64,000 nucleotides of DNA. Origin: Cognaticolwellia mytili (GTDB lineage: Bacteria > Pseudomonadota > Gammaproteobacteria > Enterobacterales > Alteromonadaceae). The notes beneath the pieces are model-generated. The model worked only from the letters and a program-made list of their open reading frames with translations. It had not been told where the DNA came from and ran no database searches. The DNA lies in contig NZ_NBOF01000001.1 in NCBI RefSeq assembly GCF_002104475.1, positions 1-64,000 on the forward strand, read 5' to 3'. Below, piece after piece: positions 43,105 through 49,105 of this stretch. Each line of letters starts with the position of its first letter. Positions within the stretch are counted from its first letter, which is position 1. A program made the translations under genes and the position numbers.

Positions 43105-43276
43105 ATGCACAAGATGTACGGTATATCGCTAGTGCATAGACGCTTTTTAAATCTATTCTATTGTTGCATTTACTGTAACTATCATTTGTCTTAATCCATA
43201 TTTATTACATAAATGAACTTGTCTAAAATAGCCTTCTCTATTTAAAGACAAGTTTCTATTTAAAAGTAAGGCATTG

Positions 43277-43828
43277 ATGATGTGGAAAAATACAGCTGAA
43301 AACTACGGCTTAGTAAGTAAATTATTGCATTGGCTAAGTGCCATCAGTGTTTTTGCTATGTTTGGTGTAGGCTTTTGGATGGTTGATTTAACTTATTACA
43401 GCCCGTGGTATCAAAAAGCACCTCACTGGCATGAAAGTGTCGGCATCTTATTGTTAAGCGCAACATTACTACGTCTATTTTGGCGCCTATTCAGCGTAAA
43501 ACCACAAGCAATAATCAATCATTCAAAAATAGAGAGGCGTGCATCTAGCACTACTCACCTTGTTTTATATGTATTGATTTTTACGCTTTTCATTAGTGGC
43601 TATTTAATTTCAACTGCAGACGGTAGAGCAATCGATATTTTTAATTGGTTCAGCGTTGCGGGACTAGAAAAGTTGATTGAAAATCAAGAAGATTTAGCTG
43701 GTTTAGTTCATGAATATGTCGCCTATATTTTAATAACTACAGCGTTGTTACATGGCGTAGCTGCAGTCAAGCATCATGTTATTGATAAAGATCGTACCTT
43801 GGCAAGAATGATTAAATCCAACAAATAA
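43277..43828 (+). CDS. Cytochrome b561 family protein
   Basis: A 183-residue four-helix membrane cytochrome of the bacterial b561 (CybB/YceJ) type. Likely haem ligands are the histidines in LLHWLSAISVF (about 17), HWHESVGILLL (about 50), and the C-terminal HEYVAYILITTALLHGVAAVK pair. It likely passes electrons from the quinone pool. A TTG three bases upstream is in frame, but the ATG at 43277 is placed 5 bases after AAGG; an ATG at 43280 is equally possible. It is followed 108 bases later by a YceI gene, the E. coli yceJ-yceI pairing, so they probably work together in quinone or isoprenoid metabolism. Confidence 0.9.
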   Translation: MMWKNTAENYGLVSKLLHWLSAISVFAMFGVGFWMVDLTYYSPWYQKAPHWHESVGILLLSATLLRLFWRLFSVKPQAIINHSKIERRASSTTHLVLYVLIFTLFISGYLISTADGRAIDIFNWFSVAGLEKLIENQEDLAGLVHEYVAYILITTALLHGVAAVKHHVIDKDRTLARMIKSNK

Positions 43829-43936
43829 TTATTTAATCTGAACTCTGAATGATGAGTGCGTGAAGCTAAAGTGAGTCAATAGTTTAGGTTATTTAACACT
43901 CAATAATAAATCGTTATAACGACAACAGGAAAAACA

Positions 43937-44512
43937 ATGAAAAAATTTACATTAGCACCATCGCTATTAGCAGTATCACTATTAACCTCAAGTATATTTT
44001 TACCTGCAGTAGCTGCGGATTATAAAATTGATCATGAGGGTGCACATGCATCAATAAATTTTACAGCTAGCCATTTAGGTTTTAGCGTTTTAACAGGGCG
44101 CTTTAATAGTTTTAGCGGCAACTTCTCATATGATGGGAAAGATATTGCGGCGGCGAAAATATCGGTAACTGTGGACACTTCTAGCTTTGACTCTAACCAT
44201 GCCTTACGTGATAAACATGTGCGTTCTGATGATTTTCTTGATGTTAAAAAGTTCACGCAAGCAAGATTTGATAGCAATAAAGTTGAAGATAAAGGTAACG
44301 GAAGTTTATTAATATCGGGTGACTTTACATTACATGGTGTGACTAAACCTATGGTAATTGACGCGATTAAAGTTGGTGAAGGTAATGATCCTTGGGGCGG
44401 TTATCGTATAGGATTTAGTGGCACGAGCACGATCAGTATGGCAGATTTTGGTTTTAAAAAAGACTTTGGAAAAATTGAACTTGCTTTACATATTGAAGGC
44501 ATTCGTCAGTAA
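43937..44512 (+). CDS. YceI family periplasmic isoprenoid-binding protein
   Basis: A 191-residue secreted lipocalin-like protein. A signal peptide (KKFTLAPSLLAVSLLTSSIF...AVAA) precedes a YceI barrel starting YKIDHEGAHASINFTASHLG and containing NHALRDKHVRSDDFLDVKKF, FTLHGVTKPMVID and GFSGTSTISMADFG. The family binds polyisoprenoids such as ubiquinone-8 precursors in its barrel. The NHALRD/HVRSDDFLD segment is fully conserved. AGGAAAAACA before the ATG is a good ribosome site. It is paired with the upstream b561 gene. Confidence 0.95.
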   Translation: MKKFTLAPSLLAVSLLTSSIFLPAVAADYKIDHEGAHASINFTASHLGFSVLTGRFNSFSGNFSYDGKDIAAAKISVTVDTSSFDSNHALRDKHVRSDDFLDVKKFTQARFDSNKVEDKGNGSLLISGDFTLHGVTKPMVIDAIKVGEGNDPWGGYRIGFSGTSTISMADFGFKKDFGKIELALHIEGIRQ

Positions 44513-44675: not shown

Positions 44676-45116
44676 TTATGAAAGTTTAAGTTTATTGTCT
44701 ACCGATAATTTCTCACCACCAAGTAAAATTACAAAGACTAATAAGCTACCCCATAATATATGTTCATTCATCGCTGCTGGGCTAATATCTACTAAACTCA
44801 ATACCGCGATGACATTAACCACAAATAGCCCCGCGGCTGATAATCGGCTGAATAAACCAATCGCCAATAATACTGGTAAGACTAATTCACCGATTGTCCC
44901 TGCCCATGCTGCAGCAACAGGAGATAATAATGGTACTTCGTATTCATATTCAAATAGCATCAAGGTCGACTCCCAATCACGTATTTTAGTCAGTCCAGAT
45001 TTGAAAAATATACTGGCGACATAAAGTCGGACAAATAGTATCGCGGGAATACGTAAGTAATCGCTATAGTCTAAAATTTGGTTGTGTAATGCTCTAACTT
45101 TTTGCAAAGCCATCAT
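44676..45116 (-). CDS. DoxX family membrane protein of the bufferin operon
   Basis: A 146-residue four-helix protein of the DoxX family (FVRLYVASIFFKSGLTKIRD, LPVLLAIGLFSRLSAAGLFV). DoxX proteins are small membrane proteins of unsettled function, often linked to redox or thiol stress, and are frequent last genes of bufferin-type clusters. It follows the BufC-like gene by 47 bases on the same strand and ends near the shared terminator, so it is probably the last gene of the operon. Two ATGs in a row (45116 and 45113) leave the start uncertain by one residue. Confidence 0.9.
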   Translation of the reverse strand: MMALQKVRALHNQILDYSDYLRIPAILFVRLYVASIFFKSGLTKIRDWESTLMLFEYEYEVPLLSPVAAAWAGTIGELVLPVLLAIGLFSRLSAAGLFVVNVIAVLSLVDISPAAMNEHILWGSLLVFVILLGGEKLSVDNKLKLS

Positions 45117-45163
45117 AAATATTCCTCTTTATGCACTGAAGTGTTGTTGTATTTAGGGTTAAC

Positions 45164-45982
45164 TTAATCTGAAGTTAGTGTTGAAATTGAACTAACCAGT
45201 TGTTGTTCAATGGCTTTTGGCAGCCAATCTATGATTGAAAACGTCTCATTAGTTACTTTATCTAATGCACTACCAATACTGGGCTGTGAACGAGCAGCCA
45301 AAGACGGTAGCGATTGCCATAACGTTAGCCATTGGAACTCATGTTGTGTTATTTGTTGATATTGCGCTTGAAAATTGGGCCGCCATATTAGGTAGTAATA
45401 CTCACCATTTTCAGTATTATTAAGTTGCTGTTCGATATCATGGGTTGTTAATTTGCTATTAATTTCATTAGCTTGTTTGATATCTTCAACAACTAGATCT
45501 ACAGGATAATTTAGCTTTAATACCTTAAAACCGGCACTAAAGTTAATCGTGAGCTGATATGCATCAAAATCGTTTAGCAATGATAACGTTGTTAAATCTT
45601 TTTCTACGTCTTCAGCTCGCTCCGTATGATGGCAAGCAAAGTCTAAATCCGCTATTGCAGCTAAAACGCCACTGTTTTTTAGTGATTGTTGGCGAATAAA
45701 GTCAGCAAACTCTTGCCCTAATTCGCCCCAATCATATTGGGCTTTTAAATGTTTTTTCAGGTATGTTTTAACCAACAAAGTAAAATCAGTTTCGCCAACA
45801 AATGAATGCACAGTGGCAAAGGTTATTGCTAATGCGCGGCTAGCATTGGCCAATAAACTGTGTTGATAAATTTTCATTCCAGCAGATAAGTTATTACTGT
45901 CTCCTTCGTTGCTTGTTTTTTGTAAAGCATCTAATGAAAATATAGTAGATAGCATCTGTGTTTGTTGCTGCTTAAGAGTCAT
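45164..45982 (-). CDS. bufC: BufC-like DUF2063 protein
   Basis: A 272-residue protein whose N-terminal half matches DUF2063 (GMKIYQHSLLANASRALAIT, TFATVHSFVGETDFTLLVKT, DWGELGQEFADFIRQQSL). The C-terminal half is the variable partner domain seen in bufferin clusters. BufC acts with the MNIO enzyme BufB as a precursor-binding partner during Cys modification. Its start overlaps the end of bufB by 11 bp, implying translational coupling. This assignment rests on the neighbour set (bufA-bufB-bufC-doxX) as well as the domain. Confidence 0.88.
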   Translation of the reverse strand: MTLKQQQTQMLSTIFSLDALQKTSNEGDSNNLSAGMKIYQHSLLANASRALAITFATVHSFVGETDFTLLVKTYLKKHLKAQYDWGELGQEFADFIRQQSLKNSGVLAAIADLDFACHHTERAEDVEKDLTTLSLLNDFDAYQLTINFSAGFKVLKLNYPVDLVVEDIKQANEINSKLTTHDIEQQLNNTENGEYYYLIWRPNFQAQYQQITQHEFQWLTLWQSLPSLAARSQPSIGSALDKVTNETFSIIDWLPKAIEQQLVSSISTLTSD

Positions 45983-46943
45983 TGTGGACTACCTCTAACG
46001 TTTTCTTACTGTCAGATTTTTCATACTCTGCAGAAAAAACATTGATAGCGATACTTTTAGCTTTATCCGCTTCAGCAATTAATACCTGCCAAGTGGGTAA
46101 ATTTTCATCCCATTCAATTAATGTTGCTATAGGACCAAATTTTTGCAATGCGTAATGGTACAAATGCCAAACGTCATCAGATACTGGTTGTCCGTGATCA
46201 TCTATCATTAATTGCTCTGAGCCCACTGGTGTACAACCAGCTAAGTGAATTTCGCCAACAAGCTCCGCTGGAATCTTATCAAGCCAGTGCTTTGCATGTG
46301 CTAACACGTCAATTGTGCTTTCTGAATCGATTTGTTCTGAGGTTAACGTGGTTAATGGCTGATTAATGGCATTAACAATCAAGTTATTCAAATCAACCAG
46401 TAGCTTGCAACCTGATTGATGACAAAGCTTGACGAGAAATTCAGCCTCACTGTAAGTTGAACCAGGTAACTCAATATACGCTGACAAATTTTCGACCAAT
46501 ATTTTTCGACCCAATTGCATTTGCGCTCGCTCAACGTTACGCACCATAATACTTAAACTTTCGTCATTAAATGGCACAGGAAGTAAATCGCCGGCGTGTA
46601 CACTAGCATTTTCACTTTCAGCCCAGCTAAAACAAGCATGATCAGATAATAGTATCGGTTGATAGCGCTCAACTAAATTAGTGAGTTGGTCAAGCTGGTT
46701 TTGTGGCGCAGGTAAAGCTGAACCCAAGCCTAATGATGTGGCATGAAGGCTAATTTTATAATGCTGACTTATGTCAGTTAGTACCGCATGACTAGCACCG
46801 CCATTGGCGAAGAAGTTTTCTGCATGTACTTCAATAAAGTCGATGTTAGCTGGAGTGTTTAAGGCATCTTCAAAATGATTATGTCTTAAACCCACACCAA
46901 TTAAAGGTAAGTTAGTTGGTGTTTTTTTGTTCAAGGAAAACAT
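45972..46943 (-). CDS. bufB: BufB, DUF692 multinuclear iron oxidase (MNIO)
   Basis: A 323-residue TIM-barrel enzyme of the MNIO (DUF692) group, which binds two or three irons and oxidises cysteines of a small precursor peptide. The conserved metal-ligand stretches are present: GVGLRHNHFED, IDFIEVHAENFF, SLHATSLGLGS, LLSDHACFSWAE, ILVENLSAYIE, LLVDLNNLIVN, EIHLAGC and IDDHGQPVSDDVW. The open frame extends six codons upstream, but ATG at 46943 follows GGAGAAAATT with correct spacing and is chosen. In characterised bufferin systems BufB converts Cys to thiooxazole-type groups that bind copper. It lies between the precursor gene and bufC. Confidence 0.94.
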   Translation of the reverse strand: MFSLNKKTPTNLPLIGVGLRHNHFEDALNTPANIDFIEVHAENFFANGGASHAVLTDISQHYKISLHATSLGLGSALPAPQNQLDQLTNLVERYQPILLSDHACFSWAESENASVHAGDLLPVPFNDESLSIMVRNVERAQMQLGRKILVENLSAYIELPGSTYSEAEFLVKLCHQSGCKLLVDLNNLIVNAINQPLTTLTSEQIDSESTIDVLAHAKHWLDKIPAELVGEIHLAGCTPVGSEQLMIDDHGQPVSDDVWHLYHYALQKFGPIATLIEWDENLPTWQVLIAEADKAKSIAINVFSAEYEKSDSKKTLEVVHNDS

Positions 46944-46996
46944 AATTTTCTCCAGTAACATCGAAAAAGTTAGTCGTTATAGCGACTTTAATTTAC

Positions 46997-47284
46997 TTAA
47001 GCTTTTTGCTTTAATTTTTCGCGAGCTTCTTTACGTGTCAAACCACCTTGGGTTTTGCAAAGACCTTTGGTGACTAAGCGCCACTCACCTGGATCGTTAT
47101 CTATTTTCGATTGTCCGGCGCAAGAATGAGTACCTGCGATATTACTGCAGTCATTTTGCCCTGCTAAAGATACGCCGTAACATTTTTCTTTTTTCGCGCG
47201 TTTGTCTGCGGCTTCTACATCGGAAATAACACCTAATGTTAAAGCGGCTGCTAGCGCTGTTGATAGTGCAATATTATGATTCAT
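46997..47284 (-). CDS. bufA: BufA1-type bufferin precursor peptide (DUF2282)
   Basis: A 95-residue small secreted protein. The second of two close ATGs is chosen, because AAGGA lies only one base from the first but seven from this one. Signal peptide to about residue 25 (ALAAALTLGVISDVEA), then a core with four Cys at 35, 46, 55 and 76: EKCYGVSLAGQNDCSN, GTHSCAGQSK and VTKGLCKTQGG. This Cys pattern and the KCYG/AGxNDC/HSCAG motifs are those of DUF2282 proteins now known as bufferins, RiPPs that carry copper in the periplasm after Cys modification. The tail is lysine-rich. It is next to bufB and bufC. Assignment to the A1 subtype is by motif. Confidence 0.9.
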   Translation of the reverse strand: MNHNIALSTALAAALTLGVISDVEAADKRAKKEKCYGVSLAGQNDCSNIAGTHSCAGQSKIDNDPGEWRLVTKGLCKTQGGLTRKEAREKLKQKA

Positions 47285-47299
47285 GTTCATTTCCTTTTA

Positions 47300-47617
47300 T
47301 TAATGTTCGTTTAACCAGTCTAGTACTTCTTTCTTTGGCGCGGCGCCAACATGTTCAGATGCTACTAGTTTATCTTTTAAAAGCAATAGCGATGGAATGC
47401 TTCGAATACCGTATTTTTGTGCTAAGGCCGGCATATCATCAATATTTACTTTAATCGCTTTCATTTTAGTCGATTGTTCGTCGGCAACTTGCTCAAATAT
47501 TGGTGCCATTGTTTTACAAGGTCCACACCAAGGTGCCCAAAAATCGATTAACACTTCAGTGTTTGATGCTAAAACGTCGGTAAAGTGTTGTTCACTTCTG
47601 ATTTCTTCTACATTCAT
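47300..47617 (-). CDS. Thioredoxin (co-operonic with the bufferin precursor)
   Basis: A 105-residue thioredoxin with no signal peptide. The active site WAPWCGPCK (about 28-36) and the cis-proline of RSIPSLLLLKD (about 73) are intact, so it should be a working cytoplasmic dithiol reductase. AGGAAAAAGCG precedes the ATG. It lies just 9 bases from the precursor's first possible start codon on the same strand, the tightest link in the operon. Keeping the precursor cysteines reduced before BufB acts is a plausible role; this is inference from context. Confidence 0.92.
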   Translation of the reverse strand: MNVEEIRSEQHFTDVLASNTEVLIDFWAPWCGPCKTMAPIFEQVADEQSTKMKAIKVNIDDMPALAQKYGIRSIPSLLLLKDKLVASEHVGAAPKKEVLDWLNEH

Positions 47618-47700
47618 CGCTTTTTCCTACTTACTTTTATGGTTTTAGCTGTGAAACTAAATTAAGTTTTTAATAAAGCTTCACAGTCACAAAGTGTTAA

Positions 47701-48168
47701 TTAAAGTTTGTCAGCAGCAACACCTTTGATGTCACCCCAGTTATCGTTTGAACTATTTAAATAACCTGGTACGTCCGTTAACCATTTCTTTTGCACGTCT
47801 TTGTTAAGGTTTAAGTACAATTTGTTGTCAACAATTTTCCAAGCTAATGGATCAGTATCAAATTTCTTCTCCATTGCTACACCAAAAGCACAGAAGCCGC
47901 CGTACTGTGGAGCATATTTAGCTGGACTTGCTTTAAACATGTCACGGTTTTCTTCATTGCTAAAACGATAAATACCGCCTTTATAAGTCGCTGTGTAACT
48001 TGCGTTACCCATTTTAGGAGTCGACATAGTGAAGTAGCTAACAGGGTCGTAACCTTTTATTGCTAAGTCGTTGGCATCAGCATTCATGTCAATATCTGCG
48101 GCGAATGAAAGGCTGCTTGCAACTAAAATAGAGCCAGCTAGGATTGTTTTTAAAGTTGTTTTGAACAT
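47701..48168 (-). CDS. Secreted YHS domain protein (bufferin operon, first gene)
   Basis: A 155-residue exported protein. ATG at 48168 is chosen because it follows AGGAAACA and starts a clean signal peptide (FKTTLKTILAGSILVASSLS, then FAA); a longer frame to 48243 runs through the promoter. The YHS domain (IKGYDPVSYFTMSTPKMGNA, then TYKGGIYRFSNEENRDMFKA, PAKYAPQYGGFCAFGVAMEK) contains the GGFCAFG motif where other members have selenocysteine; here it is Cys. YHS domains are common in metal-handling proteins, including copper ones. It is the promoter-proximal gene, 83 bases before the thioredoxin. Confidence 0.88.
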   Translation of the reverse strand: MFKTTLKTILAGSILVASSLSFAADIDMNADANDLAIKGYDPVSYFTMSTPKMGNASYTATYKGGIYRFSNEENRDMFKASPAKYAPQYGGFCAFGVAMEKKFDTDPLAWKIVDNKLYLNLNKDVQKKWLTDVPGYLNSSNDNWGDIKGVAADKL

Positions 48169-48241
48169 GTTGTTTCCTAAATTTGTTTGATTGTTAGTGA
48201 CGGGGTAAATAATAGTGTTGATCGCTAAGTGAGTGGGATAC

Positions 48242-48270
48242 AATCGTCCGCACTTTGAACCAAATCGTCC
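48242..48270. promoter_or_regulatory. Direct-repeat operator for the AraC regulator
   Basis: AATCGTCC occurs at 48242-48249 and again at 48263-48270, an exact 21-bp (two-turn) step, in the 115-base gap between the divergent YHS and AraC genes. Two direct half-sites on one face of the helix are the usual binding pattern of AraC-family dimers. It sits 74-102 bases before the YHS start and 14-42 before the AraC start, so it may control both. Confidence 0.68.
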
Positions 48271-48283
48271 AAGTTGCCTATTT

Positions 48284-49105
48284 ATGGACCATCTATCCGA
48301 AATAATTAACCGATTTAGCCTACAAGCAGGTGTGTTTTACACCGGAAAAATATGTGGTTTGTCCCATTTTAATGAAGGGGCTGCATTAGAAGGGCATATT
48401 CATCTATTACGCAGTGGTACGCTTTCTATTATTGGTTTAGATAAAACCACTATAGTGTTAGACAAGCCCTCTATTATTTTTCTTCCTCGCCCGGTTAAGC
48501 ATGGTTTGCAAGCACGAGATACTGATAATGCTGAACTTATTTGTGCAACGGTGACCTATGGTAGTAATAGTTCTAACTTATTAGCAGATGCCTTACCCGA
48601 TTTATTAATTCTCCCTTTAGTAGAGTCGCCTTTTTTACAGACCAATATTGATTGGATTATTGCTGAAGCAGGGCAAGAACTGCAAGGACGTCAAGCTGTA
48701 ATGAATCGACTGATGGAAATATTCATTATTAATATGATGCGTTCGCTCATTACTAAAGGTGATATTGCGCAAGGTATGCTGGCGGGATTAATGCATCCGC
48801 ATTTAAAGAATGTTTTACAACAATTGCATAATCATCCGGAAGAACACTGGTCATTAGAAAAGATGGCAGGGTTAGCGTTAATGTCTCGGTCAAAGTTTGC
48901 TGAAGTATTTAAAGGTGTTATTGGCCAAACACCTAATGATTATCTTGTCAGTTGGCGAGTAGGTGTTGCACAGTCGTTATTAAAGCAAGGCAAAAATGTC
49001 AGTATCGTCGCTAATAGTGTTGGCTATGAAACGGCTTCTGCACTTGCGCGTGTTTTTAGAAAGCAAACTAATATGTCGCCAAAAGAGTGGTTAGAGCAGC
49101 AATAA
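48284..49105 (+). CDS. AraC family regulator of the bufferin operon
   Basis: A 273-residue regulator. ATG at 48284 is preferred over an upstream GTG (48233) because the extra 17 codons cover the operator; the ribosome site is weak either way. The N-terminal half is a cupin-like ligand domain (HFNEGAALEGHIHLLRSGTL, then IIFLPRPVKHGLQA). The C-terminal half is the AraC double helix-turn-helix (WSLEKMAGLALMSRSKFAEV, then VSIVANSVGYETASALARVF). It is divergent from the operon with a direct-repeat site between. The signal it senses is unknown; the cupin may bind a small molecule or metal. Confidence 0.9.
   Translation: MDHLSEIINRFSLQAGVFYTGKICGLSHFNEGAALEGHIHLLRSGTLSIIGLDKTTIVLDKPSIIFLPRPVKHGLQARDTDNAELICATVTYGSNSSNLLADALPDLLILPLVESPFLQTNIDWIIAEAGQELQGRQAVMNRLMEIFIINMMRSLITKGDIAQGMLAGLMHPHLKNVLQQLHNHPEEHWSLEKMAGLALMSRSKFAEVFKGVIGQTPNDYLVSWRVGVAQSLLKQGKNVSIVANSVGYETASALARVFRKQTNMSPKEWLEQQ

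Follow-up and report, generated by a model that had tools for sequence, protein, structure and literature searches.

What would a YHS-domain protein, a thioredoxin and an AraC-family regulator contribute to an operon for a bufferin, a ribosomally synthesized and post-translationally modified peptide (RiPP)? Bufferins bind copper, and PMC12452194 presents them as copper buffers that have few core genes. The locus that raises the question lies at positions 44,676 to 49,105 of a 64,000-nucleotide stretch of Cognaticolwellia mytili DNA (RefSeq assembly GCF_002104475.1, contig NZ_NBOF01000001.1, positions 1 to 64,000 of the forward strand), which at its full length is referred to below as the window. 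We favor, with a probability of roughly 0.55, the reading that these genes form one operon, headed by a dedicated YHS protein and governed by an AraC switch of the thiol-redox type. The argument is carried by gene content, by gene order and its conservation, by a predicted operator that is nearly exclusive to this position, and by the conservation of cysteines in the regulator and in the YHS protein, all of which are observed.

Gene order and its conservation

Open reading frames (ORFs) together with Pfam and NCBIfam scans bear out the gene content given in a preliminary description of this DNA: six minus-strand genes, for a YHS protein, thioredoxin, BufA, BufB, BufC and DoxX, are packed with gaps of 9–83 bp and an 11-bp BufB/BufC overlap, and a divergent AraC gene occupies the plus strand at the place claimed for it. 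PF07681, PF09836, PF05114, PF10048, PF00085 and NF041384 were all matched above their curated cut-offs by window proteins. The features are as follows.

48284..49105, plus strand: AraC-family regulator (Cupin_6 and HTH_18), RclR-like; its Cys24 and Cys87 correspond in alignment to Cys21 and Cys89 of RclR
48241..48272, minus strand: predicted operator for AraC, a direct repeat (TTGGACGATT-N13-GGACGATTG) with a 21-bp distance between half-sites
48209..48214, minus strand: TATTAT, a candidate -10 element for YHS transcription, 26 bp past the second half-site
47701..48168, minus strand: member of the YHS domain-containing (seleno)protein family, NF041384 152.5 bits (cut-off 70)
47649..47686, unstranded: inverted repeat CTGTGAA...TTCACAG in the YHS-thioredoxin gap, read by eye; a candidate regulatory or processing site
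47300..47617, minus strand: thioredoxin, cytoplasmic-type, WCGPC, TIGR01068 114.1 bits (cut-off 96.8)
46997..47290, minus strand: BufA precursor (DUF2282, Buf1 class), PF10048 79.3 bits (cut-off 22.4)
45972..46961, minus strand: BufB, maturase (DUF692) of the multinuclear non-heme iron-dependent oxidative enzyme (MNIO) class, PF05114 286.9 bits
45164..45982, minus strand: BufC, DUF2063 partner protein, PF09836 51.1 bits
44676..45116, minus strand: DoxX membrane protein, PF07681 59.9 bits

Intergenic distances are 83 bp (YHS–thioredoxin), 9 bp (thioredoxin–BufA), 35 bp (BufA–BufB), −11 bp (BufB/BufC) and 47 bp (BufC–DoxX). Judged by eye and by comparison with relatives, ATG at 48168 is the more likely YHS start than the listed TTG at 48243, since a reading frame opened at the latter would run into the operator; for AraC, ATG at 48284 is likewise more likely than GTG at 48233. 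No terminator-like site was seen on the minus strand in the 83-bp gap between YHS and thioredoxin, and over both strands such sites number 7 versus 4.6 (sd 2.7) in shuffled sequences. In relatives the genes overlap or almost touch, with spacings of −1 for both YHS–thioredoxin and thioredoxin–BufA in locus L157 and for YHS–thioredoxin in L087 when the longest ORFs are taken, which argues for a single transcript. The YceI and cytochrome b561 genes (43274–44512, convergent with the operon) were considered as part of the unit and rejected, since among the window and 60 family loci scanned the window alone gave a match to either.

The gene-order comparison suggested by the preliminary description was run over family, genus and order. 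YHS and BufB profile matches were collected from 147 genomes of the family and 295 of the order, with BufB also sought in 17 genomes of the genus, and 81 MNIO loci were compared: the window and 80 others, 60 of them from the family or genus, where most of the strongest matches were taken along with some weaker ones to serve as controls, and 20 from among the 24 matches found beyond the family. Family BufB matches beyond the 60 were compared by eye with the YHS matches, and none had a YHS match within 20 kb. BufA lies upstream of BufB in 63/81 loci. In 46 of these 63, of which 31 belong to the family and 15 to five other families of the order, BufA is itself preceded by a YHS gene on its own strand. 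None of the 18 loci without BufA by our rule has YHS upstream; one of them, L110, has a divergent arrangement of YHS-BufA-DoxX, and only the tree treats it as linked. Among the 46 YHS-linked loci, an AraC gene lies within 4.5 kb in 36 and is divergent in 34, and DoxX follows in 39. The slot directly before the precursor, to which the preliminary description had drawn attention, lies between YHS and BufA and holds a thioredoxin in 24 of the 46 (16/31 in the family, 8/15 outside). Outside the family, across the order, a YHS match lies within 1.5 kb of 15/15 BufB matches that score 257 bits or more and of 0/9 weaker listed ones. A chance neighborhood is ruled out by the 46/63 loci together with this order-wide check, as is confinement of the arrangement to the genus or family of the window, since it was found in families f183, f189, f191, f196 and f203. 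Among the named relatives found, an uncultured Colwellia sp. is the nearest, with 79% identity in BufB. Twenty order-level YHS loci were chosen for the absence of an adjoining BufB of the window type and are uninformative on frequency; the class-level YHS loci (n = 20) contain no YHS-bufferin operon, and L213 alone among them has BufB-BufC, in convergent orientation.

The trees agree with this linkage. They are quick trees, built with IQ-TREE and the Shimodaira–Hasegawa-like approximate likelihood ratio test (SH-aLRT) for BufB and with FastTree, without support shown, for YHS and thioredoxin; L110, L155, L095 and L226 sit on long branches. In the tree of 81 BufBs, one branch (SH-aLRT 99) holds all 47 linked loci (the 46 and L110), and the YHS-linkage label changes 4 times versus a shuffled mean of 26.2. 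Among linked loci the thioredoxin label changes 6 times by parsimony. The YHS tree sets bufferin-linked YHS, AraC-only YHS and the YHS of L138 apart from nearly all solo YHS, the exceptions being L144, which falls within the linked part, and L212 and L213, which group with L226. At L226:1776-5216, in family f194, YHS-BufA-BufB-BufC-DoxX is flanked by LysR-type neighbors (by eye) in place of AraC; its BufB lies outside the main branch, with a branch length of 2.18 and an unsure placement. This locus may be a second YHS-bufferin association.

Several variants were seen in the compared loci. L156:6053-6918 and L159:5982-6850 carry tandem BufA copies in YHS-thioredoxin operons. An ORF of about 330 aa lies beside DoxX in six YHS-linked loci; the copy at L101:8260-9243 has no Pfam match, and those of L090, L091, L095, L103 and L169 are tied to it by a similar CIPQHY/CIPQHF stretch. 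The ORF is possibly an uncharacterized conserved member of the cluster.

A predicted operator at the YHS promoter

The AraC-YHS intergenic regions share the direct repeat listed above, with its 21-bp step; operators of the AraC family typically have this layout. Of the 46 YHS-linked loci, 36 score 14/19 or more, against 0.4% of 2300 shuffles; among the linked loci, sites at this level occur in 32/34 with a divergent AraC and in 4/12 of the others. In control loci, for which steps of 20–22 bp were allowed and 1.1% of shuffles scored 14 or more, the figures are 0/18 for solo YHS, 0/17 for BufA loci without YHS and 1/18 for BufB-only loci (the L080 site is clipped). L110 and L144 have no operator, with scores of 11 and 12. 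The window's own genome contains a single site at up to 3 mismatches, and a strict pattern (up to 2 mismatches) finds 16 sites in the 147 family genomes, each of them immediately ahead of a YHS gene, versus 2 for the reversed pattern. Fifteen of the 16 belong to YHS-linked operons and one to L138; the strict pattern thereby recovers 15 of the 30 linked operons in that sample and misses diverged sites. No match to the sigma-70 consensus was found at the YHS promoter, which would fit an activator-dependent promoter, and AraC is predicted to bind the repeat and activate transcription from there.

The operator also occurs outside complete bufferin operons. At L138:4061-6807 the order is AraC-operator-YHS-thioredoxin-BufA-DoxX, with no BufB or BufC in the cluster; the same genome has a separate operon with both (L086), and the L138 precursor may be modified in trans. 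L229:3453-4919 and L230:3486-4953 consist of AraC, an operator (14 and 15 of 19) and a bufferin-type YHS gene; the 10 kb covered contain no bufferin gene, and downstream, on the opposite strand, there is an ORF that by eye resembles DUF1348. Because these two loci lack bufferin genes, YHS appears as the more constant partner of AraC, and the bufferin genes as its usual but not only companions. The preliminary description had called the YHS and thioredoxin genes add-ons. They are indeed conserved parts of the operon, but the label understates YHS, whose promoter carries the operator.

Cysteines of the regulator and of the YHS protein

The best NCBIfam match of the window AraC is RclR (NF040475), at 100.1 bits versus a cut-off of 400; three relatives score 82–85 bits. 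Identity to Escherichia coli RclR is 27% over 214 aa. Oxidation of Cys21 and Cys89 to an activating disulfide is reported to switch RclR on (PMC7464077), and RclA, under RclR control, is described as a Cu(II) reductase, which ties copper to hypochlorite responses (PMC7527725, PMC7464077). Both sensor cysteines are present in the nearest AraC of all 36 YHS-linked loci with an AraC within 4.5 kb, and also in the AraCs of L138, L229 and L230. In the nearest AraCs of L109 and L170, which have no YHS, the first cysteine is replaced (by Asn and Phe) and the second is present. Given the 36/36 conservation, the operon is most likely switched by thiol oxidation. The preliminary description had proposed an AraC switch at this locus; the divergent gene is there, and its product resembles a thiol switch more than a metal sensor.

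The YHS protein has a signal peptide by eye. The general Pfam YHS model PF04945 covers only residues 56–89 and falls below its own cut-off (25.2 versus 30.3 bits); the single cysteine, Cys93 in GGFCAFGV, lies outside the part matched. This residue is kept in 45/45 linked proteins, the truncated L104 being left out, and in 20/20 YHS proteins of L135–L154, a set in which those of L138 and L144 belong to the linked type; the motif of bufferin-linked YHS is GG[YF]CA[FM]GV. In L104 the YHS gene (L104:4558-4944) is cut off before its cysteine, and BufA, BufB and BufC stay open. The metal site proposed for YHS/TRASH domains, from Mycobacterium phlei adenylyl cyclase, consists of one Asp and three Cys (PMC4626032). 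With one cysteine in the whole protein this ligand set is absent, and no three-Cys YHS pattern was matched among the compared loci. The earlier suggestion that the YHS protein receives metal is therefore poorly supported, and a thiol redox role fits its sequence better than metal hand-over. NF041384 is listed with a GxU motif for its selenoprotein members (PMC13188914); the GFC of the YHS protein matches it, as a motif match only, with Cys where the motif has selenocysteine, and is a lead for redox catalysis. Selenocysteine was not seen in the linked proteins aligned, though no dedicated search was made. Against solved structures, the YHS profile gave significant matches to two chains only, with repeats of AK9-type proteins.

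The bufferin genes and the thioredoxin

A four-Cys DUF2282 precursor adjoining genes for an MNIO, a DUF2063 partner and DoxX supports the bufferin-type identity of the operon. BufA has a signal peptide by eye and cysteines at positions 37, 48, 57 and 78. DUF2282 proteins with four cysteines form the Buf1 class, in which the central cysteines are reported to be modified and the first and last joined in a disulfide (PMC12452194); by transfer from that class, Cys48 and Cys57 would be modified and Cys37 and Cys78 paired. No solved structure matched BufA significantly (best E 0.88), and BufA2 NF050166 is matched below cut-off (27.2 versus 60 bits). In the alignment of 81 BufBs, 19 D/E/H/N positions are kept in at least 97%, and 16 of these 19 are identical in all. 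The window BufB narrowly misses the equivalog MNIO_BufB model NF050167 (297.1 versus 310 bits), so we class it as a BufB-like MNIO without counting it among the formal members.

The operon thioredoxin has no evident signal peptide and is a second thioredoxin of the genome, which elsewhere encodes a TrxA with 43% identity to it. Slot thioredoxins have CGPC or CAPC in 25/25 cases (L138 included), none with an evident signal peptide by eye. Since WCGPC is present and a signal peptide is not evident, a cytoplasmic role on the precursor cysteines is possible. Repeated, independent capture of the thioredoxin was considered: the slot thioredoxins broadly track the BufB tree, but the genome's own TrxA falls among them in FastTree. 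An extra thioredoxin-like CPxC protein is encoded near the cluster in six linked loci (L091, L092, L095, L101, L103 and L169), the L103 copy, the one subjected to a domain scan, being of the redoxin type; such neighbors are not specific, occurring also at unlinked L120, L131 and L173.

Proposed mechanism and alternatives

From these sequences we infer the inducer, the binding and activation by AraC, co-transcription, export and every biochemical activity in the following scheme. Hypochlorite-like oxidants or other thiol-oxidizing stress, possibly copper-driven, would oxidize the Cys24/Cys87 pair of AraC, which, on its tandem operator, would then activate the sole YHS promoter. The lone cysteine of the exported YHS protein would act as a thiol redox center outside the cytoplasm. 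Thioredoxin would keep the BufA cysteines reduced for the maturase, and might also reset AraC. BufB and BufC would turn BufA into a thiooxazole copper-binding peptide that is exported and buffers copper outside the cytoplasm, with DoxX supplied from the same transcript. Joined to AraC, YHS and thioredoxin, the bufferin set suggests that copper buffering and oxidant defense are under common control.

A number of observations weigh against a single, functionally integrated operon. Its parts can work apart, because AraC and YHS occur without bufferin genes (L229, L230) and the bufferin occurs without YHS in 6 of the 53 loci of the BufB branch (L094, L096, L100, L107, L108 and L109). Ten of the 46 linked loci have no operator site of 14/19, and 22 of them have no thioredoxin, which is therefore dispensable. 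Two weak minus-strand terminator-like sites lie within the operon, at 47887–47906 inside YHS and at 46972–46987 in the BufA–BufB gap. The regulator, scoring far below the cut-off, is not an RclR orthologue. Both cysteines are kept in the AraCs of L130 and L131, where a bufferin occurs without YHS, and are missing from a second, farther AraC ORF of the linked locus L095; judged from AraCs near the compared loci, both cysteines may be common to the family at large. The single-sequence fold model of the YHS protein had a predicted local distance difference test (pLDDT) score of 43 and was not used.

Simple co-regulation is a serious rival. Under it, the YHS protein would respond to oxidants independently, as a target of the AraC switch; the bufferin cassette would be joined to it just to share the promoter, and neither YHS nor thioredoxin would interact biochemically with the bufferin. 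The AraC-operator-YHS loci without nearby bufferin genes, the BufA loci without YHS (17 of 63) and the dispensable thioredoxin all speak for it, but operon YHS is separate from nearly all solo YHS in the tree, and a related YHS adjoins a bufferin of another BufB branch (L226), which hints at a specific tie; we regard this reading as possible, if on balance unlikely. It seems doubtful that the thioredoxin serves the switch instead of the peptide, by reducing the AraC disulfide and shutting the operon off. OxyR and SigR circuits are shut off by thioredoxin-type reduction of a regulator disulfide, and the operon's regulator has a conserved cysteine pair, yet the pair is kept in 36/36 nearest AraCs although almost half of the operons have no thioredoxin, and a role on BufA would account just as well for the position next to bufA. 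Less probable still is a metal relay, in which an exported YHS would accept copper or act as its chaperone for the bufferin, and AraC would sense copper. Copper binding by bufferins (PMC12452194), the copper response reported for some YHS domains (PMC4626032) and the gold and copper response reported for a gig/bufferin operon (PMC5413113) are consistent with it; the single YHS cysteine, the RclR thiol pair of AraC and, as a lead, the selenocysteine of some NF041384 members, which points to redox chemistry (PMC13188914), weaken it.

The operon under a thiol-redox switch thus remains our preferred reading. A bolder version, which we put forward only as a long shot, would make the bufferins of this BufB branch the copper arm of a reactive-halogen (HOCl/HOBr) response with a thiol-switch AraC and one promoter, in which the bufferin-type YHS protein, as a new exported thiol (elsewhere selenol) enzyme fed by thioredoxin-type reductants, would repair or recycle oxidized bufferin. 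The locus represents a conserved bufferin subtype with its own YHS partner, a frequent dedicated thioredoxin, a predicted operator and a candidate thiol-redox activator. It makes directly testable which signal induces these bufferins, how the cysteines of the precursor are kept reduced when oxidants are present, and which function the YHS (seleno)protein family has.

Comparison with known systems

Buf1 (DUF2282) clusters, such as that of Caulobacter vibrioides, and gig operons share with the window operon the four-Cys BufA, the MNIO, the DUF2063 partner and DoxX. Where the bufferin survey describes Buf1 clusters, it reports sigma/anti-sigma genes, with other conserved genes present "in extremely low proportions" (PMC12452194). 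The window operon differs from these in its YHS gene, in a thioredoxin that its relatives often share, in the RclR-like AraC and in a dedicated predicted operator. Captophorin/oxazolin (Hvf) clusters have an MNIO, PME1 and DoxX in common with it (PMC13097082); 5-thiooxazole copper ligands are reported for them, with EGKCG-repeat precursors in the studied cases, and that paper notes frequent regulators and a link to oxidative stress for MNIO clusters. Window proteins match the HvfC and HvfX models below cut-off.

Thioredoxin and YHS are not mentioned in the text of PMC12452194 or of PMC12668002 (preprint of PMC13097082), none of the literature matches listed joins DUF2282 or DUF692 with YHS, and none of the terms sought occurs in a paper on a marine copper-binding RiPP cluster (PMC12538549). 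Solo NF041384 members are nearly all set apart from bufferin-linked YHS in FastTree. E. coli rclR-rclABC likewise has a divergent AraC regulator with two redox cysteines and a link between oxidants and copper, but no YHS or RiPP gene adjoins it and the window operon has no RclA gene. The bufferin core has already been described, and the predicted direct-repeat operator between AraC and YHS is new here.

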